In this document: positions 20,031-31,925 of the stretch, in pieces
Numbering within the stretch: position 1 is the stretch's first letter
Layout: every line of letters begins with the position of its first letter
DNA from: Nitrospiraceae bacterium
GTDB taxonomy: Bacteria; Nitrospirota_A; Leptospirillia; Leptospirillales; Leptospirillaceae
Direction: 5' to 3'
Assembly: GCA_028064945.1 (NCBI GenBank)
Contig: JAPTWQ010000081.1
Span: 1-47,940 of the forward strand
DNA: 47,940 nt
Notes under the pieces: generated by a model
Databases searched by the model: none
The model's input: the letters and a program-made list of their open reading frames with translations, nothing else
Told to the model about the DNA's origin: nothing
Translations under genes and position numbers: made by a program

Positions 20031-20186
20031 TTTTTCTCCAATCGCCCAGATTTCGCGATCGGCCATTTTTTATTTTTGGCGATTGAAGATTTTGGATCAA
20101 TAACCATATTTTGGGGTGTTTGTTTTTCTTTTCAACTCGTCAGAAGATTGCCTCTCCCGGAGGAAAACCAAAAGGAGATCAGTTTT

Positions 20187-22109
20187 ATGGATTGTTCCGG
20201 TCACCATCTGATTTCCCGAAATGACATCGACTCTGTCGCACTTGATCATGCACTTGGACCCATTGGTGCCGTTCTCCAAAAGGATGGTTCCGTTCTTTTC
20301 AGGGTGTGGGCCCCACAATTTTTTCATGTCCATCTGGTCCTGCCCGATCAAAAAAAATCCCCCCTTTTAATGGTTTCTGAAGGAAATGGGTACCATCATC
20401 TCTCACTTTCAGGTATTGGCGTCGGGACCCGCTATCTTTTCCAGCTTGAGGGAGTCGGAACCTATCCGGATCCGGCATCAAGGTGGCAGCCGGATGGCGT
20501 GCACAAAGCCTCCGCCGTGTGGTTCCCGGAGGAATCCTTTCCCTCTCCTCTCCCCGCTTGGCAGGGCCACAGGCTCGACTCCCTGATCATCTATGAGCTC
20601 CATGTCGGAACCTTTACCGCTGAAGGGACATTCGACGGACTCATCCAACATCTTGGACATTTGCAAGAGCTTGGTGTCACCGCGATTGAGGTCATGCCGG
20701 TCGCCTCCTTTCCGGGAGAGCGGAACTGGGGGTATGATGGCGTTTATCTGTTTGCTGTTCAGCAGTCCTATGGTGGCCCCGACGGTTTTGGCCGGTTTGT
20801 CCGTGGCTGTCATGAACGTGGAATTTCGGTCCTTTTGGATGTTGTCTATAACCACCTGGGTCCTGAAGGAAATTATCTCGGAAAGTTTGCTCCCTATTTT
20901 TCAAAAATCTCCCGGACCCCCTGGGGTGATGCGATCAATTTCGATGGCCCCGAGAGTGATCATGTCCGACATTTTTTTCTGGAGAACCTTCGCACCTATT
21001 TAGAGGTCTTTGATGTGGACGGGTTCCGGTTCGACGCGATCCATGCCATCATCGACCAGTCCCCGGTTCCTTTTCTGACAGATGTTTCAAGGCTTTGTCG
21101 TCAGATTTCCGAAAAACGGGGAAGACCGGTTCACCTGATCGGTGAGTCCCATCAGAATGACCGCAGGGCGGTTCTTCCGGAAGATCAAAACGGAATCGGT
21201 TTCGACAGCCAGTGGAGTGATGACTTTCACCATGCCCTTCATGTTTTCCTGACAGGGGAAAGGGAAGGGTATTATCAGGACTTTTCCGGAGCGTCCGACC
21301 TGCCCCGCATTTTTTCAGAAGGTTTTCTGTATCAGGGCGAATATGCCCCTTCATTCAGGCGTCGCAGGGGCTCTTCTCCTGAGGGGCTTTCCGGCTCTTC
21401 CTTCGTTGTTTTCTCCCAAAATCATGACCAAGTGGGCAATCGGCCGGCGGCTGACCGGCTTACCGCAAGAATTCCCGATGCCGGACTGCGTCTCGCGGCT
21501 TCCCTGACGCTCCTGTCTCCTTTTTTGCCACTTCTTTTTATGGGGGAAGAGTTTGGCGAGACGAACCCCTTCCATTATTTTACAAGCCATGGAGACGAGG
21601 ATCTGATCAACGCTGTTCGGGAGGGGAGAAAAAGGGAGTTCCAGGATTTTCCCGGATGGACGGATCATCTTGATCCGCAGGGGTTGGAGGTGTTTGAAAA
21701 CTCCCGGTTGTCCATGCTCGACCCCGGAAGTCGGATCGGCTCCTCGCTCAAGCTTTATGCCTTTTATCGGGAGCTGATTCGCATCAGGAAATCCTATCCG
21801 GCTCTTGTGCCGCCGAACACTCTTCCTGGTCCGGATTGTCGTCTCCTTCCATCCAATCCTCCCCTATTGCTGGTTCGTCGGGAGGGTGGCGGGGAAGTGG
21901 TTCTGATTGTCGGGAACCTGTCAGAGTTACCACAAAGACTCGGGAACATCCTTTCCAACGCTCCGGGGCGGTGGTCAAAAGTTCTCGACTCCGAAGAAGA
22001 ACGCTGGGGTGGGGGAGGCAGTCTCTTTCCGGAGAGACTGGAGTCCTCTTCTGATGAAAATGTTTGTGCTCCTTATCAGGTCGCTCTCTACCGGGGGGTG
22101 GCCTCTTGA
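20187..22109 (+). CDS. treZ: Malto-oligosyltrehalose trehalohydrolase
   Basis: 640 residues, GH13. It cuts trehalose from the reducing end of maltooligosyl-trehalose made by TreY. An N-terminal E-set/CBM48-like domain (about 30-115) is followed by the barrel. Catalytic set: DVVYNH at 218-223, nucleophile D283 in FRFDAIH, acid E320 in LIGESH, and D414 in QNHDQVGNR. The family-specific HLGHLQELGVTAIEVMPVASFPG is present. A GlgB branching enzyme is less likely given QNHDQVGNRP and the treY neighbour. The ATG at 20187 has GGAG 9 bases upstream; frames extending to 20076 are rejected. The stop overlaps treY by four bases. It is the first gene of the six-gene trehalose/glucan run. Confidence 0.95.
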   Translation: MDCSGHHLISRNDIDSVALDHALGPIGAVLQKDGSVLFRVWAPQFFHVHLVLPDQKKSPLLMVSEGNGYHHLSLSGIGVGTRYLFQLEGVGTYPDPASRWQPDGVHKASAVWFPEESFPSPLPAWQGHRLDSLIIYELHVGTFTAEGTFDGLIQHLGHLQELGVTAIEVMPVASFPGERNWGYDGVYLFAVQQSYGGPDGFGRFVRGCHERGISVLLDVVYNHLGPEGNYLGKFAPYFSKISRTPWGDAINFDGPESDHVRHFFLENLRTYLEVFDVDGFRFDAIHAIIDQSPVPFLTDVSRLCRQISEKRGRPVHLIGESHQNDRRAVLPEDQNGIGFDSQWSDDFHHALHVFLTGEREGYYQDFSGASDLPRIFSEGFLYQGEYAPSFRRRRGSSPEGLSGSSFVVFSQNHDQVGNRPAADRLTARIPDAGLRLAASLTLLSPFLPLLFMGEEFGETNPFHYFTSHGDEDLINAVREGRKREFQDFPGWTDHLDPQGLEVFENSRLSMLDPGSRIGSSLKLYAFYRELIRIRKSYPALVPPNTLPGPDCRLLPSNPPLLLVRREGGGEVVLIVGNLSELPQRLGNILSNAPGRWSKVLDSEEERWGGGGSLFPERLESSSDENVCAPYQVALYRGVAS

Positions 22110-25063
22110 GTTTTCCGATAACGGCCACCTACAGAATGGGATTTTCAAAAGACTTCCGGCTTCAGGACGCCTCCCGTCTGGTCTCTTATCTCGACACTCT
22201 TGGAATCTCGACGTTGTATGCATCCCCCCTTTTCAAATCCCGAAAGGGGAGTGCCCATGGGTATGATGTGACCGATCCCACCTGTCTTAATCCCGAAATT
22301 GGCCAGATCGCCGACCTTTCGAGTCTGTCTGATTCTCTTGTGAAAAAAGGGATGGGGATGATTCTGGATATTGTTCCCAACCATATGGCCGCTCATTTTG
22401 AAAACAGGTGGTGGAGGGATGTCCTCGAGTTCGGGGAGATTTCTCCCTTTGCCGTTTTCTTCGATATCGACTGGAATCCACCTCAGGAGGCTCTCCATCG
22501 CCGGATCAGCCTTCCGATCCTCGGGGCTCCCTATGGACGGATTCTTGAAAACGGAGAGCTACGGCTGGATTATGACCGTCAGGGATTCGCGATTTATTAT
22601 TGGGATAATCGCCTGCCCGTCTCCCCATTCTCGATCCTTCCGATCGTCTCGGATATTGCAGACCGTTACCGGCAGATCACCCAGGAGATTCCGGAGGGGG
22701 ACTCTGGCGCAATCGATCTGTCCGGGATCCTGGAAGCGGTGAACGCCCTCTCAAGGGGAAGCGATGACCCCAGAAAAAATCGGATGAGGATTCAAAAATC
22801 CCGATCGGTTCTTTCAAAAATCTGGAGCCTTTCCCGTAAAAATCACGACTTTGCCAGAGCGGTTTCGGAGACAATCTCCTCCTACCGGGGTGTTCGGGGC
22901 GTTCCCTCTTCCTGGGACCGTCTGGACAGGATTATCAATGGGCAGGTTTACTGGCTGTCCCATTGGAAGACTGTGACGAGAACATTGAATTACCGGAGAT
23001 TTTTTGATGTTGCCGATCTCGTCGGGGTTCGGACGGGCGATCCGGGTGTCTTTTCAGCTCTTCATGGTTTTCTGCTCTCGATTTCCCGAAACGGATGGAT
23101 CTCCGGGGTCAGGGTCGATCACGTCGATGGTCTCTCGGATCCTTCCGGCTATCTGCGGCGATTATCGGAAGAATTGGCCCATTCCTCGGATTCACCGGAT
23201 CAACCCAATATATGGGTTGAAAAAATTGTGCTCGATGACGAGCTCCTCGATCCCCAGTGGCCGATCCGTGGCACGACAGGGTATGAATTTTTAAATCAGA
23301 CCAACCGTCTCTTCGTGGATCCCGAAGGCGCGGACCGGCTGTCAAGATGGTATTCCGAGCGGATTGATCCGGGTGCTTCGTTCAAGGATATCTGCTATCA
23401 GCAGAAAAAGAAGATTTGCGAGACACTTCTGGGGGGTGAGCTCAGACGTCTGACCTTTATTCTGGAGCATCTTGCCCAGAAGAGCCGATATGCGAGGGAA
23501 CTGCCTTTTCGGGAGCTCCAGACAGGCTTGGTGGAAGTGACCGCATGTATGGGGGTCTACAGGACTTATATCCAGGATGGTCATGTTCCGAAGCAGGATC
23601 GATCGATTATCCAGGCGACTCTTCAGGAGGCAAGGCGACGCCATCCCGGGAGAAGGCGTGGCCTTTACCAGTTTTTCGAAAAAATCTTCATGATGGATTT
23701 TCCTGAAGGAATCTCGATGGAGCATCGTATGCTCTGGACCAATTTTGTCGAAAGATGGCAGCAGTTTACCGGTCCGGTTATGGCCAAGGGGGTCGAGGAT
23801 ACTTCCTTCTATCTCTACTCCCCGTTGATCTCTGCCAATGAGGTGGGGGGTGATCCGGAGCATCTGTCGATTTCGACAGACCGTTTTCACCAGATGAACC
23901 GCAGGCGGCTTGAGTCTGCCAGCAAGTCCATTTCTGCAAGCTCGACACATGACACGAAGCGAAGCGAGGATGTACGGGCAAGAATCAATGTGCTTTCCGA
24001 AATCTCTTCAGAGTGGTGCGAGCGTGTTGAAAAATGGATGAAGTTCAACAAGAAGGCCAAAATCCGTGGGCAGGGGGAATGGATCCCGGAACCCAGCCTT
24101 GAGCTTTTCATTTACCAGACCTTGTTGGGTGCTTGGCCACTATTCAAAAAGGAAGAAGGGGATTTTCGCACCAGGATGGCGAGTTACCTGGTCAAGGTCG
24201 CGAGGGAGCGAAAGCGTCACTCCGACTGGATCACTCCGGATGTTGTCTACGAAGAGAGCCTGTTGGCATTTCTCTCAGGCATTCTTCGGGAAGACCGTTC
24301 GAATCATTTTTTTTCCGATTTCCGCATGTTTGCCAGAAGAATTGCCTTGGGAGGGGCTCAAAACTCCATTTCCCAGACCATTGTGAAACTTTTATCGCCG
24401 GGAATCCCGGACTTTTATCAGGGAACGGAACTGTGGGATTTTTCCCTTGTGGATCCCGACAACCGGCGACCGGTGAAGTATGGGCTCAGGGAAACTCTTT
24501 TGGCGAGTCTTCAAAAGAAGTTCGCTGAGTCTCCTGAAGATTTATGGAGAGAACTCCTTTCCCAATGGGAGGATGGAAGGATCAAGCTTTTTGTGACACA
24601 CATCCTTCTTCGGCTGAGACGCATGGTTCCGGACTTGTTTTTTTCGGGAAGCTACCATCCGTTGCCGGAAGAGTGGGAGCAGTCGGAGAAAATGATCGGA
24701 TTTGCCCGGATGGCCGGGAAGCAAGCTATCCTGTTCGCGGTTTCCAGAAAGCCATTGTCCCATATTGACGGGCAATCCGGGATTGCTGTTGACCCATTGA
24801 TCTGGGGCGACAGAGGAATGCCTCTTCCTCCGGGGCTGCCGGGCCCCTGGTTTCATGCTTTTCATGGACGCCCGGTCCCTGTTTTTCAGGATGGGGGAGA
24901 GGGGAATCCTTTAAGTGTCCGGATGATAGATGCTTTTGGCGATGCGATTTTTACGGTGCTTTTCGCCAACATCAACTCACCTGATTCTCCTGGGGCAGAG
25001 AAGCAGGCAGTCGGAAGCGAACATTATCAGATGGAAAGAGGTGGTTGTGGACGAGCCGGTTAA
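22106..25063 (+). CDS. treY: Malto-oligosyltrehalose synthase
   Basis: About 985 residues, GH13_26, at the long end for TreY. It isomerises the terminal alpha-1,4 bond of maltodextrin to alpha,alpha-1,1. Motifs: ATYRMGFSKDF (family start ATYRLQ), LYASPLFKSRKGSAHGYDVTDP, DIVPNHMA near 88-95, nucleophile D338 in GVRVDHVDGLSDP, E372 in WVEKIV, and D616 in STHDTKRSEDVRAR. The C-terminus includes PDFYQGTELWDFSLVDPDNRRPV. The start is TTG at 22106, overlapping the treZ stop (TTGA), because the conserved ATYR would be lost with any later start. Its end overlaps the next gene by about 17 bases. No frameshift is visible across 3 kb. Confidence 0.95.
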   Translation: MSFPITATYRMGFSKDFRLQDASRLVSYLDTLGISTLYASPLFKSRKGSAHGYDVTDPTCLNPEIGQIADLSSLSDSLVKKGMGMILDIVPNHMAAHFENRWWRDVLEFGEISPFAVFFDIDWNPPQEALHRRISLPILGAPYGRILENGELRLDYDRQGFAIYYWDNRLPVSPFSILPIVSDIADRYRQITQEIPEGDSGAIDLSGILEAVNALSRGSDDPRKNRMRIQKSRSVLSKIWSLSRKNHDFARAVSETISSYRGVRGVPSSWDRLDRIINGQVYWLSHWKTVTRTLNYRRFFDVADLVGVRTGDPGVFSALHGFLLSISRNGWISGVRVDHVDGLSDPSGYLRRLSEELAHSSDSPDQPNIWVEKIVLDDELLDPQWPIRGTTGYEFLNQTNRLFVDPEGADRLSRWYSERIDPGASFKDICYQQKKKICETLLGGELRRLTFILEHLAQKSRYARELPFRELQTGLVEVTACMGVYRTYIQDGHVPKQDRSIIQATLQEARRRHPGRRRGLYQFFEKIFMMDFPEGISMEHRMLWTNFVERWQQFTGPVMAKGVEDTSFYLYSPLISANEVGGDPEHLSISTDRFHQMNRRRLESASKSISASSTHDTKRSEDVRARINVLSEISSEWCERVEKWMKFNKKAKIRGQGEWIPEPSLELFIYQTLLGAWPLFKKEEGDFRTRMASYLVKVARERKRHSDWITPDVVYEESLLAFLSGILREDRSNHFFSDFRMFARRIALGGAQNSISQTIVKLLSPGIPDFYQGTELWDFSLVDPDNRRPVKYGLRETLLASLQKKFAESPEDLWRELLSQWEDGRIKLFVTHILLRLRRMVPDLFFSGSYHPLPEEWEQSEKMIGFARMAGKQAILFAVSRKPLSHIDGQSGIAVDPLIWGDRGMPLPPGLPGPWFHAFHGRPVPVFQDGGEGNPLSVRMIDAFGDAIFTVLFANINSPDSPGAEKQAVGSEHYQMERGGCGRAG

Positions 25064-26714
25064 TCCCATATTGCACGGTGTGATGTACGAGATTTACATC
25101 AGGAGCTATTCGGACCATTCCGGAGACGGGACCGGCGATTTTCTGGGTATCGTGGACCGACTGGATTATATTTCCAGACTGGGTGTCAGTTCGATTCTTC
25201 TCAATTGTCCTTTTCTGTCTGTTCACGGAAAAGATCATCATCCCCTGCTGGACTGGATGAAACTGGATCATGAGCTGGGCACCCTCTCAGACTTTTTGCT
25301 TCTTCTTGAAAAAGCTCACATGAAAGGATTGAAGGTCCTGCTTTCTCTTCCGGTGAATGCGACGAGTGACCAGCATGTCTGGTTTTCCGAGTCCCGATTG
25401 TCCCGGGGATCCCTGTTTTCAAACAGTTACTTCTGGTCTGATACGCCCCCTCCCGAGCCAGAGACGAGACACGATCCTCCAGAAAAGATCAACTGGACCC
25501 TTGATGCCGATTCCGGGAGATACTATTGGTTTGGCGATCATAAGGACGAGCCTTCCCTCAATTATGGTGATGCGGAAGTGCTTTCCGAAATGTGTCGCAT
25601 CTTCGAGCACTGGTTTGCGCTTGAGGTGGACGGATTTCGTCTTGCCGGAGCCGGAAGGCTTCATTCCTGGAAAAAAAATGAAATCATTCCCGTCCAGGAT
25701 CCTTTTCAAACCTTTCATCCTGTCATTTACCCGCTCAAAAAATCCTATCCGGAAAAGATGTTCCTTTTTGAAACCGGATCTCCTCCCTCAAAACGCGGGC
25801 AGGTAAATGATTCAAGGCTTTTCTATCATTTCAATCCTTTTTTCCCCGCGGTGATCTCTGCGATTAAAAACGAGGACCGGTCACCACTTGAACCGATCCT
25901 TGATGGGAAGCCCAAAGGACGCTCGAAAAAGAGCCTCTCCAGAAACAGGACGATCCACCTGAGAGAGCGTTCGGAAGAAACCTTTGAATTGCTCGACACA
26001 CTGTCAAGCGATGACGCGCTCTTTCCATTGGCTCCGGATCTCCCGGAGGATCGCCCGATCCTGTCCAGGGTGGCACGGCTCATGGAAAATGGAAGACGAC
26101 GAATCCAGCTGGTGATGAGTCTTTTTTTAACCTTCCCTGGACTTCCTGTCCTGTATTACGGGGATGAGATCGGTATGGGCGATCATCCCCACCTCAGGGG
26201 AAAAAACCCGATCCGTACCCCGATGCACTGGTCGGCTGACCGGAATGCCGGATTTTCCAGGGCGGATCCGGAAGAGCTCTTCAACCCTGTGATTGAAGAC
26301 CCTCTTTACAGCTATCAGATGGTGAACGTTGAAAGTCAGGAACGATTTCCTGATTCCCATCTCTGGAATGTCCGAAGAATGATTGAAGTTCGGAATCAGA
26401 ATCCTCTTCTTTATGGAGACGGGGATTTTGAGCTGATTGAAACAAGGTCGGCATCGATCCTGGCTTATGTCCGCTCCTGTGATGGGGCAACCGGCCTTTT
26501 TATCCACAATCTTTCAAAATCGGCCATGTTTGGACATCTGGATTTGGCGAAATGGCACGGTTACAAGCCACGGGAGATGTTTTCAGGCGGGGCTTTTCCC
26601 ACGGTGGGGAAAGCCCCTTACCTGATCACCATGACTCCGTATTCAACCATATGGTTTTTACTGGAGGCTCCGATCAGAAAGAAAATGGCCAAAAGTCGGA
26701 GGAGGGGATCTTGA
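25047..26714 (+). CDS. TreS-like GH13 protein lacking catalytic residues (probable pseudoenzyme)
   Basis: About 555 residues, similar along its length to the TreS encoded directly after it. Shared parts include YEIYIRSYSD near the start, YYWFGDHKDEPSLNYGD, VLYYGDEIGMGDHPHL, RTPMHWSADRNAGFS and DPLYSYQMVNVESQ. Active-site positions differ: the nucleophile Asp (D205 in TreS, RAD) is A200 (RLA); the NH motif His (H108) is A105 (VNATSD); NHDE becomes SDDA at 321-324; the DDGYD-RDY motif is replaced by KDHHPLLDWMKL. The acid Glu (E242) and one Asp (D323) remain. Loss of the nucleophile predicts no glycosidase or isomerase activity. The frame is intact, so it is not an ordinary pseudogene. GTG at 25047 follows AGAGG; GTG 25041 or ATG 25083 are alternatives. 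It overlaps treY by 17 bases and treS by four. Confidence 0.88.
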   Translation: MDEPVNPILHGVMYEIYIRSYSDHSGDGTGDFLGIVDRLDYISRLGVSSILLNCPFLSVHGKDHHPLLDWMKLDHELGTLSDFLLLLEKAHMKGLKVLLSLPVNATSDQHVWFSESRLSRGSLFSNSYFWSDTPPPEPETRHDPPEKINWTLDADSGRYYWFGDHKDEPSLNYGDAEVLSEMCRIFEHWFALEVDGFRLAGAGRLHSWKKNEIIPVQDPFQTFHPVIYPLKKSYPEKMFLFETGSPPSKRGQVNDSRLFYHFNPFFPAVISAIKNEDRSPLEPILDGKPKGRSKKSLSRNRTIHLRERSEETFELLDTLSSDDALFPLAPDLPEDRPILSRVARLMENGRRRIQLVMSLFLTFPGLPVLYYGDEIGMGDHPHLRGKNPIRTPMHWSADRNAGFSRADPEELFNPVIEDPLYSYQMVNVESQERFPDSHLWNVRRMIEVRNQNPLLYGDGDFELIETRSASILAYVRSCDGATGLFIHNLSKSAMFGHLDLAKWHGYKPREMFSGGAFPTVGKAPYLITMTPYSTIWFLLEAPIRKKMAKSRRRGS

Positions 26715-28423
26715 ACGAGAACACAGCTGATTCTCTCTGGTACAAGGATGCGATCATTTACGAAATTCCGGTCAAATCCTTTTTTGATTCCAATAACGAT
26801 GGAGTGGGGGATCTGAAAGGGCTGACCCAAAAGCTCGACTATATCCAGAGCCTTGGTGTGACCGTGATCTGGCTATTGCCGATCACCGATTCGCCGTTGC
26901 GGGACGACGGGTATGACATCAGGGACTATTATACGATCCACCCATCGTATGGAACGATGAAAGATTTCGAGACCTTTCTTTCCGAGGCCCACATTCGTGG
27001 AATCCGGGTCATTGCTGAAATGGTTTTGAACCATACATCCGATACCCATCCATGGTTTGTCTCGGCAAGATCGTCCAGAAACTCACCGTTCAGGGACTAC
27101 TATGTCTGGAGTGATACGGTCGAGCGTTACCGTGAGACCCGGATTATTTTCGGTGACTCGGAAAAATCAAACTGGACATGGGAGCCAAAAACCCACCAGT
27201 ACTACTGGCATCGTTTCTTTTATCACCAGCCCGATCTCAACTTTGATAATCCAAAAGTCCAGGAAGAAATGCTGAATGTCGTCAAGTTCTGGTTCTCTCT
27301 TGGAGTCGATGGGCTCCGCGCCGATGCGGTTCCCTATTTGTACGAAAGGGAAGGAACGTCCTGCGAGAATCTCCCGGAAACGCATTCTTTCCTGAAAAAA
27401 ATCCGCTCCGAGGTGGACCGTCTTTTTCCCGGAAGAATGCTTTTGGCCGAGGCCAATCAGTGGCCACAGGATGTCCTTCATTATTTTGGAAATGAGGATG
27501 AGTTTCAGATGGCGTATCACTTTCCCCTGATGCCCAGGCTTTTTATTGCGATTGCCCAGGGGAACAGAAAACCGATTGTGGATATCCTGGCCCAGACGCC
27601 TCCTATTCCGAACTCTTGCCAGTGGGCGATTTTCCTCAGGAATCATGACGAGTTGACTCTTGAGATGGTTTCTGATCAGGAGCGGGATTATCTTTGGTCC
27701 ACCTATGCCTCGGACCACCGGATGCGCCTCAATATCGGAATCAGGAGACGACTGTCTCCGCTGATGTCGAACGACCGAAGAAAGATCGACCTGATGCAAA
27801 GCCTTCTCCTGACCCTTCCGGGGACGCCGATCCTATATTACGGAGATGAGATCGGTATGGGAGACAATATCCATCTTGGAGACAGAAACGGAGTCCGTAC
27901 TCCGATGCAATGGTCTTCAGACAGAAACGGGGGGTTTTCCCAGGGGGATCCGTCCTCTCTGTTCAGTCCACCAATCCAGAACCCGGTTTACGGGTTTCAG
28001 GTGGTGAATGTCGAGGTTCAGTCAAGATATCCCACAAGCCCTCTCAATATGCTCAGGCAGATGATTTCGGTCCGTCAGTCTGTCCAGATTTTCGGGAGAG
28101 GAACGATGACAGTCCTGTCTCCCAAGAATCAAAAAGTCATGGCCTATCTCAGGGAGTTTGGGGGAGAGGTTGTTCTGGTGGTGAACAACCTTTCCGATTC
28201 CACTGAGTCGGTTACGATCGATCTTTCTGCCTATGCTGGCTGGACACCTTTTGAAATGTTCAGCCAGACCGGTTTCCCGGAAATTTCAAGATCTCCATAC
28301 CACTTCTCACTCAGTCCATACGGTTTTTTTTGGCTCAAGCTTGTTCCTGCCGGAAAAAAAGAGAAAAAGCGACAGTCCCGATCTGTTGAATTGCCGAAAT
28401 CTTCTGTCTCGAGGAGGAAATAA
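26711..28423 (+). CDS. treS: Trehalose synthase (maltose alpha-D-glucosyltransferase)
   Basis: 570 residues, GH13_16, without a fused maltokinase domain. It interconverts trehalose and maltose. The start LWYKDAIIYEIPVKSFFDSNNDGVGDLKGL is the classic TreS N-terminus; DDGYDIRDYY, NH at 107-108, nucleophile D205 in GLRADAVPYLYE, acid E247 in LLAEANQWP and D313 in NHDELTLEM are all intact. The LYYGDEIGMGDNIHLGDRNGVRTPMQWS block confirms the subfamily. The TTG at 26711 overlaps the preceding stop (TTGA) and has GGAGG about 9 bases upstream. It abuts glgE by one base. In the GlgE pathway its maltose product is phosphorylated by the maltokinase encoded two genes later. Confidence 0.97.
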   Translation: MNENTADSLWYKDAIIYEIPVKSFFDSNNDGVGDLKGLTQKLDYIQSLGVTVIWLLPITDSPLRDDGYDIRDYYTIHPSYGTMKDFETFLSEAHIRGIRVIAEMVLNHTSDTHPWFVSARSSRNSPFRDYYVWSDTVERYRETRIIFGDSEKSNWTWEPKTHQYYWHRFFYHQPDLNFDNPKVQEEMLNVVKFWFSLGVDGLRADAVPYLYEREGTSCENLPETHSFLKKIRSEVDRLFPGRMLLAEANQWPQDVLHYFGNEDEFQMAYHFPLMPRLFIAIAQGNRKPIVDILAQTPPIPNSCQWAIFLRNHDELTLEMVSDQERDYLWSTYASDHRMRLNIGIRRRLSPLMSNDRRKIDLMQSLLLTLPGTPILYYGDEIGMGDNIHLGDRNGVRTPMQWSSDRNGGFSQGDPSSLFSPPIQNPVYGFQVVNVEVQSRYPTSPLNMLRQMISVRQSVQIFGRGTMTVLSPKNQKVMAYLREFGGEVVLVVNNLSDSTESVTIDLSAYAGWTPFEMFSQTGFPEISRSPYHFSLSPYGFFWLKLVPAGKKEKKRQSRSVELPKSSVSRRK

Positions 28424-30390
28424 TGATGGATGTGAATGGCGGTCTTCCGATCGTCAAGGGGGACAAACCGTCCTGCCGGGTTGTGATTGAACGTGTTGAG
28501 CCCAGGATTGATTGTGGGGGATATCCGGTCAAAAGGCATTCCGGGGAATCCTTGACTGTGTCTGCGGATATTTTTGCGGATGGTCAGGATCCATTGCGTG
28601 TTCTTCTGGAGTATTGTTGTTCCGGAGCCGGAACCTGGCAATCGGAGTTGATGACTCCGCTTGGGAACGATCGATGGTCTGCTTCTTTGACCCTTCCCGA
28701 GATGGGGCTGGTGCATTTTCGGATTTCAGGCTGGATTGACGAGTATGCAGCCTTTTCGGACCGGATCGTTAAAAAGTTTCAGGCTGGACAGGAGACGGAT
28801 CTTGAATATGCGGAGCTCATTCTTCTGATACGGAAAACCGCGGAAAGATCCAGTGATTCGGAACGACTGATGGCATGGGCGGAAAGGGTCCATGGAGAAC
28901 TGAACCCCGAGAAACGTCTTCATATTGCAACCGAACAGGAGATGATCCTGTTTGCCTCGATGTTTCCGGATCCTGCTGAGGTTGCACGCACGACAGCGGA
29001 TTTCAAGGTCTTGGTGGAAAGGGAAAGGGCTTCTGTCGGGGCATGGTATGAGTTTTTTCCCAGAAGTGCTTCCCCCGACTCAAAGAGGTCCGGAACCATC
29101 AAGGATGCAATCGGAAGACTTCCGGAGATCGCATCGATGGGATTTGACGTGATTTATCCGGGACCACTGACTCCGATCGGATCCGCATTCCGAAAAGGAG
29201 CCAACAATAGCCCGAAGTGTCTTCCGGGAGATCCCGGAAGTCCATGGGCCATCGGTTCATCCGCAGGTGGACACATGTCCATTCATCCCGATCTGGGATC
29301 GATGGAGGATTTTTCCGAACTGGTCGCCACGGCAAAGTCACTGGGAATGGAAATCGCGATGGAGCTGGCGCTCCAGTGCTCCCCCGACCATCCTTATGTC
29401 AAGGATCATCCCGAATGGTTCAGGAAGCGTCCGGACGGTTCAATCCATTATGCCGAAAATCCTCCAAAGAAGTATCAGGACATTTATCCCTTTGATTTCC
29501 ATTGTGATCAATGGAAGGCGCTTTGGGAGGAGATACTGGCGATTGTTTTATTCTGGGGTGAAAAAGGTGTCCGTGCCTTTCGGGTCGACAATCCGCATAC
29601 AAAACCGTTCGCTTTCTGGGAATGGCTCCTTGAAAACGCGCGGAAGAGCTATCCGGACATGGTTTTTCTGGCAGAGGCCTTTACGCGTCCCAATGTGATG
29701 TACCAGCTTGCAAAGGTCGGATTTTCGCAGTCGTACACTTACTTTACCTGGCGGAACTCCAAACGCGAAATCATAGAGTATGTGACAGAGTTGACAACGG
29801 CTCCGGTCAAGGATTTTTTTCGTCCGAATTTTTGGCCCAACACCCCGGATATCCTGCATGAATACTTGCAAAAAGGAGGTCCTCCAGCCTTTGTGATCCG
29901 CTTGGTTCTCGCCGCAACATTCTCTTCAAGCTACGGAATATTCGGTCCGGCTTACGAGCGTTGCGAGTCTCAGCCGATCTCAGAAGGATCGGAAGAATAT
30001 CTCGATTCGGAAAAGTATGAGATTCGTCATTGGGGACCGAAGCCCCCGTTCGATATCAGCGGGGTCATTTCCAGCATCAACAGGTTCAGGAGAAGCTACC
30101 CGGCTTTTTTAAAAAATGAAGGAATCCGTTTCCTTCCGATAGACAATGACCAGATGCTGGCTTATCTGAAACCGGGTCCATCCGGCTCTCCTGACGTGAT
30201 TGTCCTTGTCACACTTGATCCGCATGCTCCTGTGGAAGGAACGCTTGCCTATCATCCTGATGGTTCTGGCAACGCGTTCAGGTTGAAAAACCTGATGGAT
30301 GATTCGTTTTCAGAATGGACGGGGAGGAGTCATTTTATCCGCATTGATCCATCTGTCACTCCATTCATGATCTTCGCAAGGGAGGGGTGA
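28423..30390 (+). CDS. glgE: Alpha-1,4-glucan:maltose-1-phosphate maltosyltransferase
   Basis: 655 residues, GH13_3. It adds maltosyl units from maltose-1-phosphate to the end of alpha-1,4-glucan. An N-terminal beta domain (to about 120) and helical insert precede the barrel. Motifs: TPIGSAFRKGANN near 250, GGHMSIHPDLGS, ELALQCSPDHPY, nucleophile D389 in FRVDNPHTKPFAFW, acid E418 in FLAEAFTRP, and WPNTPDILHEYLQ. The ATG at 28423 shares one base with the treS stop, with GGAGG upstream; a second ATG follows directly. It overlaps the maltokinase gene by one base. With TreS and maltokinase it forms the GlgE route to glucan known from actinobacteria. No branching enzyme (glgB) lies in the window. 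Confidence 0.96.
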   Translation: MMDVNGGLPIVKGDKPSCRVVIERVEPRIDCGGYPVKRHSGESLTVSADIFADGQDPLRVLLEYCCSGAGTWQSELMTPLGNDRWSASLTLPEMGLVHFRISGWIDEYAAFSDRIVKKFQAGQETDLEYAELILLIRKTAERSSDSERLMAWAERVHGELNPEKRLHIATEQEMILFASMFPDPAEVARTTADFKVLVERERASVGAWYEFFPRSASPDSKRSGTIKDAIGRLPEIASMGFDVIYPGPLTPIGSAFRKGANNSPKCLPGDPGSPWAIGSSAGGHMSIHPDLGSMEDFSELVATAKSLGMEIAMELALQCSPDHPYVKDHPEWFRKRPDGSIHYAENPPKKYQDIYPFDFHCDQWKALWEEILAIVLFWGEKGVRAFRVDNPHTKPFAFWEWLLENARKSYPDMVFLAEAFTRPNVMYQLAKVGFSQSYTYFTWRNSKREIIEYVTELTTAPVKDFFRPNFWPNTPDILHEYLQKGGPPAFVIRLVLAATFSSSYGIFGPAYERCESQPISEGSEEYLDSEKYEIRHWGPKPPFDISGVISSINRFRRSYPAFLKNEGIRFLPIDNDQMLAYLKPGPSGSPDVIVLVTLDPHAPVEGTLAYHPDGSGNAFRLKNLMDDSFSEWTGRSHFIRIDPSVTPFMIFAREG

Positions 30391-31925
30391 TGGCTCCCTC
30401 TCAGGAAGAGAGACCCGTGGTCCGGATGGCTGGAAAGATTGCGGATCTTCCACGCCTGTTTCAGGGAGAGCGGGGATACCGGATCTTGTCATCGTGGCTG
30501 GGGAGCCAACGATGGTTTGCCGGAAAATCGAAAAAGATCATCTCAGGGGATTTTTCGGATTATTTCAGTCTTGGAGTCAGGGAAAATGAGGTTTTCTTTG
30601 GAGGATTCCTGAACCTCCATTATGAGTCCGGGGAAGGGGATTCCTATTTTATCCCCCTTTCTTTTTCCCGAAAGACTTCAAGAACGCTTTTCCCATTGGG
30701 AACGCTTGAGTTTGATGATGGTTCGGGGGTTTTGGAAGATGGTTTGCTGATTCCCGAGATGGGCCAGACCCTTTTAAAGATATTTTTCGAAAAACAGGAT
30801 TCTGCAGCCCTCTCTGTTCAGCAAACATCCCTTTTTCCAACTCTGGCAAGAACTTCGGATTTGGATATTCTGCCCAGAGTCTTGTCGGGAGAGCAGAGCA
30901 ATACCTCTCTGCTCTTTGGTCGCTCCTTGATCATGAAGTGCTATCGCCGTCCGGAAAAAGGCGGAAATTGTGATTTTGAAATGGGAGCGTTTTTTTCGTC
31001 TCGCACCCTCAGCCTTCCTGTGGCACCGCTTCTGGGCGCACTCTGTCATTCTCCCGAATCGGGGGGCTCGATTGTCATCGCCCTCTTGTCCGGATTTGTG
31101 GAAAACAGGGGAGATGCGTGGAGCTGGCTTTTAAAAGCGATTGATCCGGACAAGGTGGTCGAAAACTTCCATTCCGGTCAAAAAAGTCTTCTGGATAAAG
31201 ATGTTATCAGGCTTGTGAAAAAGATAGGCGCAAGTACAGGGTTGATGCACCGGTGCCTCTCTGAAGAGTCCTTCTCGCCCGAAATGGCTCCAGTGCCATT
31301 TCTTCCAGAAGATTGGGAGCTTCTGGGGCGATCGGTACTCGCCATGGGACGGGATGTTTTTCCGGAGGGAAGCTCTTTGCCACCTTCCTGGTGGCCGGAC
31401 CATCTGCTCGGTTTTGAGGAGGCTTCCCGGGCGTTTTGGAGACGGATTCCAGCCTTTTTCTCCGGGCCCATGGATGGAGACTCGGCCGATTCCTGGGGGG
31501 GAAGGATCCGTTGCCATGGGGACTATCATCTGGGTCAGCTTTTGGTTACGAGTGATCTGGACATTGTTGTCATCGATTTCGAAGGGGAACCTTCCGTTCC
31601 CATTTCCGTCCGCAGGGAGAAACGCTCTCCCCTGTCCGATGTTGCCGGAATGGTTCGATCTCTGGACTACCTCTCGAAAATGATTTTCCCGGATTTTGAA
31701 AGCAGGGCCGTTTCAAAAGCGCTGTTCGCCGAGTTATCTCTTCATTTTCTGGACGAATATCAGCAAGAAATGGCAGGGGCAGGGGAACTTCCCTCTGGGG
31801 GCGCCTATTCCCGATTGCTGAAAGCCTGCCTGCTCAGAAAGGCTTTTTACGAGCTATCCTACGAGATCAACAACCGTCCGGACTGGTGCCACGTTCCCCT
31901 TGCAGGGATTCTGGAACTTCTCTAA
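30390..31925 (+). CDS. Maltokinase (Pep2/Mak type)
   Basis: 511 residues. It phosphorylates maltose with ATP to maltose-1-phosphate for GlgE. The N-terminal cap contains LGSQRWFAGKSKKI, typical of maltokinases (W-F-x-G-K). The kinase core has the HGDYHLGQLL loop with catalytic D378 and the metal site D396 in VIDFEGEP; the C-terminus RKAFYELSYEINNRPDWCHVPL is also characteristic. The ATG at 30390 overlaps the glgE stop by one base (TGATG); a GTG one codon earlier is less well spaced from GGGAGG. In mycobacteria the maltokinase forms a complex with TreS; here they are separate genes of the same run. It is the last gene of the operon. Confidence 0.94.
   Translation: MAPSQEERPVVRMAGKIADLPRLFQGERGYRILSSWLGSQRWFAGKSKKIISGDFSDYFSLGVRENEVFFGGFLNLHYESGEGDSYFIPLSFSRKTSRTLFPLGTLEFDDGSGVLEDGLLIPEMGQTLLKIFFEKQDSAALSVQQTSLFPTLARTSDLDILPRVLSGEQSNTSLLFGRSLIMKCYRRPEKGGNCDFEMGAFFSSRTLSLPVAPLLGALCHSPESGGSIVIALLSGFVENRGDAWSWLLKAIDPDKVVENFHSGQKSLLDKDVIRLVKKIGASTGLMHRCLSEESFSPEMAPVPFLPEDWELLGRSVLAMGRDVFPEGSSLPPSWWPDHLLGFEEASRAFWRRIPAFFSGPMDGDSADSWGGRIRCHGDYHLGQLLVTSDLDIVVIDFEGEPSVPISVRREKRSPLSDVAGMVRSLDYLSKMIFPDFESRAVSKALFAELSLHFLDEYQQEMAGAGELPSGGAYSRLLKACLLRKAFYELSYEINNRPDWCHVPLAGILELL

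Follow-up and report, generated by a model that had tools for sequence, protein, structure and literature searches.

In a 47,940-nucleotide stretch of a Nitrospiraceae bacterium genome (contig JAPTWQ010000081.1, hereafter the window), the gene for the trehalose synthase TreS is directly preceded by a second TreS-like gene, at 25047..26714 on the plus strand. Its 555-residue product, here called pTreS, is, as judged from its residues, without the GH13 catalytic machinery, and it probably serves TreS as a non-catalytic partner subunit. According to this proposal, pTreS would have lost the GH13 chemistry, a loss legible in its sequence, and kept the S8 subdomain and domain C, where TreS subunits pair. 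The two proteins would be made together by way of an observed stop-start overlap (NTGA) that presumably couples their synthesis. As a pseudo-symmetric heteromer with TreS, pTreS would then modulate the stability or activity of its partner, much like plant ISA2 with ISA1, while the old pocket, positively charged and conserved, may bind something or prop the fold.

Loss of catalytic residues in a maintained gene

The pTreS gene is a single uninterrupted frame of 555 codons ending in TGA, as the initial annotation had described, and its resemblance to TreS extends over the whole length (36% identity to the TreS of the window, E 5e-114). With TIGR02456 the protein scores 393 bits and does not reach the family cut-off of 678. 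The predicted structure (mean predicted local distance difference test score 79.4) is matched best by solved TreS; the 28 highest Foldseek matches are all TreS entries, as are rows 1-19 of a second comparison. Confidence is low in the S7 and S8 loops of this model, and in S8 of the TreS model too, so no claim is built on side chains there.

Residues were compared between 22 pTreS orthologue clusters (the query and hits P0004-P0024, leaving out P0003, a self match, and P0025, a fragment) and 54 TreS; as all the clusters inherit a single loss, they do not count as independent. Codon 200 (25644..25646, plus strand, as are all features given here) encodes Ala at the position of the nucleophile Asp (D205 in TreS), with Ala in 20 clusters and Ser in two. 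Codon 105 (25359..25361) likewise has Ala for the active-site His (H108 in TreS; Ala in 21, Ser in one), and two further replacements are found in all 22 clusters: Arg-Ser at codons 308-309 (25968..25973) for His-Asp, the Asp being the transition-state stabiliser, and His-Pro-Leu at codons 65-67 (25239..25247) for Tyr-Asp-Ile of DDGYDI. The acid/base Glu at codon 242 (25770..25772) is retained in 20 clusters and is Gly in two; the pTreS of genome G007 has Gly at this position. The catalytic triad, Asp-Glu-Asp in 70 of 70 TreS (17 from the family described below and 53 others), thus reads Ala-Glu-Ser in 18 clusters, Ser-Glu-Ser in two and Ala-Gly-Ser in two, and it is lost in all 17 full-length pTreS loci as well. 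These alignments bear out the replacements of D205 and H108 and the missing DDGYD first noted in the initial annotation, and no orthologue with intact motifs occurs among the 22 clusters and 17 full-length loci. The same annotation read SDDA in place of NHDE, which proves to be a misalignment: SDDA is residues 321-324, in the divergent S7 lid, and it is the segment RERSEET that aligns to RNHDELT of TreS. N-H-D-E has accordingly become E-R-S-E, with Ser309 at the stabiliser Asp and Arg at the second active-site His in 22 of 22 clusters. Its statement that the acid Glu and one Asp remain holds for Glu242 only, as no catalytic Asp is left.

Despite these losses, the substitution pattern indicates that the pTreS gene is under purifying selection. 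The Nei-Gojobori method, run with our own script, gives a median ratio of nonsynonymous to synonymous substitution (dN/dS) of 0.134 in pTreS and 0.094 in TreS, for the 78 of 136 pairs from the 17 full-length loci with a synonymous distance of 0.05-1.5; these pairs are not independent, because near-duplicates (G011/G020) and close kin (G013/G019/G021) are among them. In the 24 closest differing pTreS pairs the ratio is 0.05-0.12. One further locus (L128) has a broken frame, but the break contains N letters; in each of the 17 remaining loci the frame is open throughout, the stop counted inside L121 being its own end. The shared losses, the absence of intact-motif orthologues in this sample and the purifying selection lend good support to the earlier view of pTreS as a maintained pseudoenzyme.

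The gene has a narrow range. Of the words sampled from the window, 98% recur in G001, the nearest genome of the comparison set, and among 61 relatives of G001 the gene was found in 17 genomes. All belong to one family (f1, represented by 21 genomes), apparently the one that includes Leptospirillum, an iron-oxidiser. An orthologue search, considered over the best 120 of 4,948 hits, gave full-length orthologues down to 644 bits, the fragment P0025 at 526 and the first ordinary TreS at 381. A profile scan of 395 genomes of the phylum, scoring at most three candidates per genome, gave matches of at least 644 bits only in those 17 genomes; unbroken copies scored at least 962 bits, and the best match outside the family 446. 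Among the 80 matches listed from a contig scan, one was a family locus (L047) and the remainder were other TreS. Four family genomes that are 70-88% complete (G002, G003, G010 and G015) gave neither a pTreS nor a TreS-level match; in G003 the treY match is limited to residues 10-451, which makes a contig end likely there.

In the phylogenetic tree, pTreS sits on a long stem of 3.2 changes per column, and a single clade of pTreS and family TreS is not rejected (approximately unbiased test, p-AU 0.565). pTreS has a single origin, perhaps a tandem duplication of treS in an ancestor of the family, which the tree allows and does not prove. Two adjacent TreS-like genes in G046 (L129, 6371-9620) were considered as a second dead-TreS case and rejected because both keep the nucleophile Asp (FRIDA and FRMDV); they constitute another tandem of active-type GH13 enzymes. 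Within this phylum, to which the search for other dead TreS was confined, the pTreS profile reached the scores of its orthologues only in the family. Thirty of the listed TreS hits outside the family sit in open frames of 1,075-1,148 residues, a length that would fit TreS-maltokinase fusions; in the window these are separate genes.

Pairing with treS and the retained dimer module

The initial annotation raised the question of whether pTreS always precedes treS, and it does: all 18 loci, which come from 17 genomes of the family, have treS as the next gene in the same orientation. An NTGA overlap of stop and start codons is seen at 16 of 17 full-length loci; the four-base overlap noted in the window was confirmed as TTGA (26711..26714), with TTG as the treS start codon. 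The treS gene itself (26711..28423) is of the active type, with its catalytic residues present, and its longer frame, 26552-28423, scores 886 bits with TIGR02456, above the cut-off.

The rest of the trehalose pathway is less constant. Upstream of pTreS, treY is found in 13 of 18 loci; the contigs of L119, L120 and L128 start too near the pair to judge its presence, and it is not upstream in L114 (G007) or L127 (the second copy of G009), where approximately 6 kb were read. Matches to the TreY, GlgE and maltokinase queries were obtained in 15, 12 and 10 of the 21 family genomes, respectively, those outside the window's genus being 35-56% identical. Genomes without these matches are 64-89% complete, with the exception of G007, which alone exceeds 90% (99%) and gave no TreY or GlgE match at 1e-30 and no maltokinase match at 0.001. 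In G009, an extra pTreS-treS pair (L127, contig C30, 6398-9774) stands without other trehalose genes. Its neighbours are an IS605-type transposase, an integrase-like gene (below the Pfam cut-off), a sigma-54 activator and EF-Tu, a context in which pTreS and treS may travel together. As the pair occurs alone in G007 and as an extra in G009, the conserved unit is pTreS with TreS and not the pathway, and its persistence in G007 without TreY, maltokinase or GlgE matches makes TreS itself the likely partner.

Conservation along the protein points in the same direction. In Deinococcus radiodurans TreS, S8 and domain C form the main dimer interface, and domain B and S7 the active-site gate, according to the available text of PMC4257617. 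The S8 equivalent of pTreS spans residues ~372-437 (26160..26357) and that of domain C residues ~451-540 (26397..26666). Of the positions conserved in at least 90% of TreS, pTreS retains a larger share in S8 (30 of 38) and domain C (17 of 26) than in the barrel (32 of 98), domain B (15 of 39) or S7 (8 of 31). Relative to TreS of the same genome, pTreS changes at rates of 0.82 in S8 and 0.96 in domain C, and of 1.9, 2.8 and 4.6 in the barrel, B and S7. Sliding windows without assumed domains, in which the similarity of pTreS to outside TreS was divided by that of family TreS, agree with this result: the ratio is 0.23-0.39 over residues 191-350, 0.82-0.94 over 351-450 and above 1 after 491. The initial annotation called the C-terminal TreS blocks well kept; the part kept best is S8, with 63% mean identity to the 54 TreS, and not domain C, with 35%. 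Gene conversion as the source of the S8 similarity was rejected, since TreS of the same genome (identity 0.643) is no closer than other family TreS (0.640) or outside TreS (0.638).

A charge difference lies within the domain C equivalent. All 22 pTreS clusters have Lys at codon 491 (26517..26519). The corresponding treS codon, 496 (28196..28198), carries the opposite charge in the family, with Asp in 17 of 17 TreS, and is Arg in 40 of the 53 others. In mycobacteria, the Arg equivalent to TreS position 496 contacts maltokinase, as reported in the accessible part of PMC6509496. That maltokinase docking was handed over from TreS to pTreS was considered on this basis; the idea is weakened by G007, which has both Asp496 and Lys491 and no maltokinase match, so docking is not the general reason for the pair of residues. 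An inter-subunit contact between them is one possibility.

Several points weigh against pairing with TreS. At L121 there is no overlap, pTreS stopping ~30 bases before the likely treS start. The contrast in retention between S8 plus C and barrel plus B plus S7 (Fisher p 2.6e-8) comes from a test that treats columns as independent and from domain limits carried to pTreS by hand numbering offsets. Domain C is weak evidence, because it is the fastest-changing main domain in TreS as well (0.321 mean difference), and the sliding ratio falls to 0.61 at residues 451-490, so that not all of it is kept. Family TreS and pTreS differ by opposite charges in four more columns, all outside S8 and C, and Asp496/Lys491 may therefore be chance. 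Finally, S8 might be conserved because pTreS pairs with itself or because the fold requires it. The conservation of S8 and C, seen at the level of regions, would suit a surface toward TreS and a homodimer alike. The earlier suggestion of a partner role gains indirect support for TreS from the constant adjacency, the frequent overlap and the kept dimer module, whereas maltokinase or GlgE as the general partner is not supported, because G007 keeps the pair with a match to neither.

Remodelled pocket and competing explanations

The former active site has been rebuilt and then held constant. Fourteen inner pocket columns have a mean entropy of 0.235 in pTreS against 0.918 for the pool, a value as low being reached by only 0.00025 of 20,000 random column sets, and His65, Arg204, Arg308, Ser309, Glu310 and Glu314 are invariant in 22 of 22 clusters. 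All TreS of the set carry a net charge of -5 in this inner pocket, and pTreS carries +1 to +3. With the gate included, the mean charge is -0.32 in pTreS and -6 in TreS; this near-zero value limits the positive switch to the inner part. The gate as a conserved binding site was rejected, as its eight columns have an entropy of 1.224, equalled or undercut by 0.84 of random sets.

Such a pocket could give the heteromer a regulatory function. As one half of a heterodimer with TreS, pTreS might act as an allosteric sensor whose cation-lined pocket binds an anionic metabolite, for example a sugar phosphate, and reports the state of the cell to the active half; this bolder extension of the proposal has, in our view, low odds. 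Since the pair persists without GlgE and maltokinase matches, the ligand would be a general one and not maltose 1-phosphate.

It is rather unlikely that pTreS instead works alone, as a homodimer that binds or senses a charged sugar, making no contact with TreS and kept beside treS for co-expression only. The strongly conserved, charge-inverted inner pocket would suit such a protein, and S8 and domain C would serve a homodimer equally well. The adjacency to treS in all 18 loci, maintained in G007 without other pathway genes, argues against it, as do the opposite charges at Asp496/Lys491, the unconserved gate columns and the lack of a known ligand.

It is also unlikely that pTreS is an enzyme whose rebuilt pocket catalyses a new reaction. 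The inner pocket is indeed strongly conserved in its new form, with six residues constant throughout, but Glu242, the sole retained catalytic residue, is Gly in two of 22 clusters, the gate columns vary freely and the S7 lid evolves 4.6 times faster than in TreS.

We regard as more improbable still that maltokinase or GlgE uses pTreS as a scaffold or docking platform. Several features would favour it: glgE and the maltokinase gene come after treS in the window, mycobacterial maltokinase docks on domain C of TreS (PMC6509496, in the part available), and the equivalent of the docking Arg is Lys in every pTreS cluster and Asp in family TreS. In G007, pTreS is nevertheless kept, Lys491 included, with no maltokinase or GlgE match, and of the 18 loci only L111 and L113 have glgE as the gene next to treS, although some contigs end shortly downstream of treS. 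A decaying pseudogene or assembly artefact, to which the broken frame of L128 and the long stem branch might point, is largely refuted by the N letters in that break, the open frames of the 17 other loci, a dN/dS near that of TreS and the reported expression of a transcript whose primers encode pTreS peptides (PMC6828654, in the part available).

Genomic context, transcripts and known parallels

Within the window, pTreS and treS belong to a set of genes that all run in the same direction. The set begins with treZ (20076..22109; TIGR02402 above cut-off) and treY (22064..25063; TIGR02401 above cut-off), for both of which the coordinates are those of the frame, without an assigned start. pTreS has a GTG start, with GAGG ~5 bases upstream, that sits inside the end of treY in a 17-base overlap (treY stop, 25061-25063). 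Downstream of treS are glgE (28423..30390; PF11896 and PF21702) and a maltokinase-like gene (30387..31925). The latter is matched by solved maltokinases and scores 250 bits with TIGR02457 (cut-off 375); being below this cut-off and having no Pfam match at 0.001, its product is taken as a diverged maltokinase.

Published transcript data appear to include pTreS. The treS1 primers used for L. ferriphilum (PMC6828654, in the part available) encode YQDHKD and WFNLDV, both of which occur in pTreS orthologues (P0015, for example). An exact site for the forward primer is present in the pTreS of G009, G014 and G017, and a site with one mismatch in at least seven further loci; for the reverse primer, G009 alone has a site, at three mismatches. 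These matches, too, point to the Leptospirillum group. According to the same portion of that study, treS1 is expressed and shows no significant change after 80 min of NaCl. By its primers, the treS1 transcript taken as that of a trehalose synthase is that of pTreS, a protein that should not make trehalose. For the treS2 primers, one match within three mismatches was found among the fetched loci (forward, three mismatches, L049). The available text of PMC4769503 lists three further L. ferriphilum genes as trehalose synthases, and that of PMC2996932 reports an up-regulated treS in wording that does not distinguish pTreS from TreS. Genes of the pTreS type get read as ordinary enzymes; the source name of P0014 and P0025 is maltose alpha-D-glucosyltransferase/alpha-amylase. 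In the open-licence literature, no paper combined 'trehalose synthase' and 'pseudoenzyme', the one paper to bring together GH13 glycoside hydrolases and pseudoenzymes deals with dairy products, and no dead TreS was apparent from titles or the start of abstracts; the accessible part of a review of prokaryotic alpha-glucan enzymes makes no mention of Leptospirillum, pseudoenzymes or heteromers.

With TreS (TIGR02456), pTreS shares whole-length homology and fold, and it differs in the absence of the nucleophile, the stabiliser Asp and the active-site His. Non-catalytic partners with a GH13-like fold exist elsewhere, as in rBAT (SLC3A1), the heavy chain of amino-acid transporters. rBAT is among the homology matches of pTreS, at a far lower score than TreS; it is an animal membrane protein and its partner is a transporter. 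Plant ISA2 resembles pTreS in being a GH13 paralogue with conserved residues replaced beside an active sister. One of these residues, Asp-510, is the stabiliser. In ISA2, Asp-375 and Asp-510 are replaced by Ile and Ser, and an ISA1-ISA2 complex was shown in which the subunits are interdependent for stability, as described in the available text of PMC3787081. ISA2 is eukaryotic and belongs to another GH13 subfamily, and its complex is established by experiment, whereas that of pTreS is inferred. In mycobacterial TreS:Pep2, a TreS tetramer carries another protein via domain C (PMC6509496, in the part available); the partner there is the maltokinase, and no dead paralogue is mentioned in that part of the text. 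If pTreS and TreS do form a heteromer, bacteria would have their own counterpart of plant ISA1-ISA2, an enzyme divided by duplication between an active half and a dead one, and the 17 full-length natural pTreS-TreS pairs offer material to probe the effect of a dead subunit on a live one.

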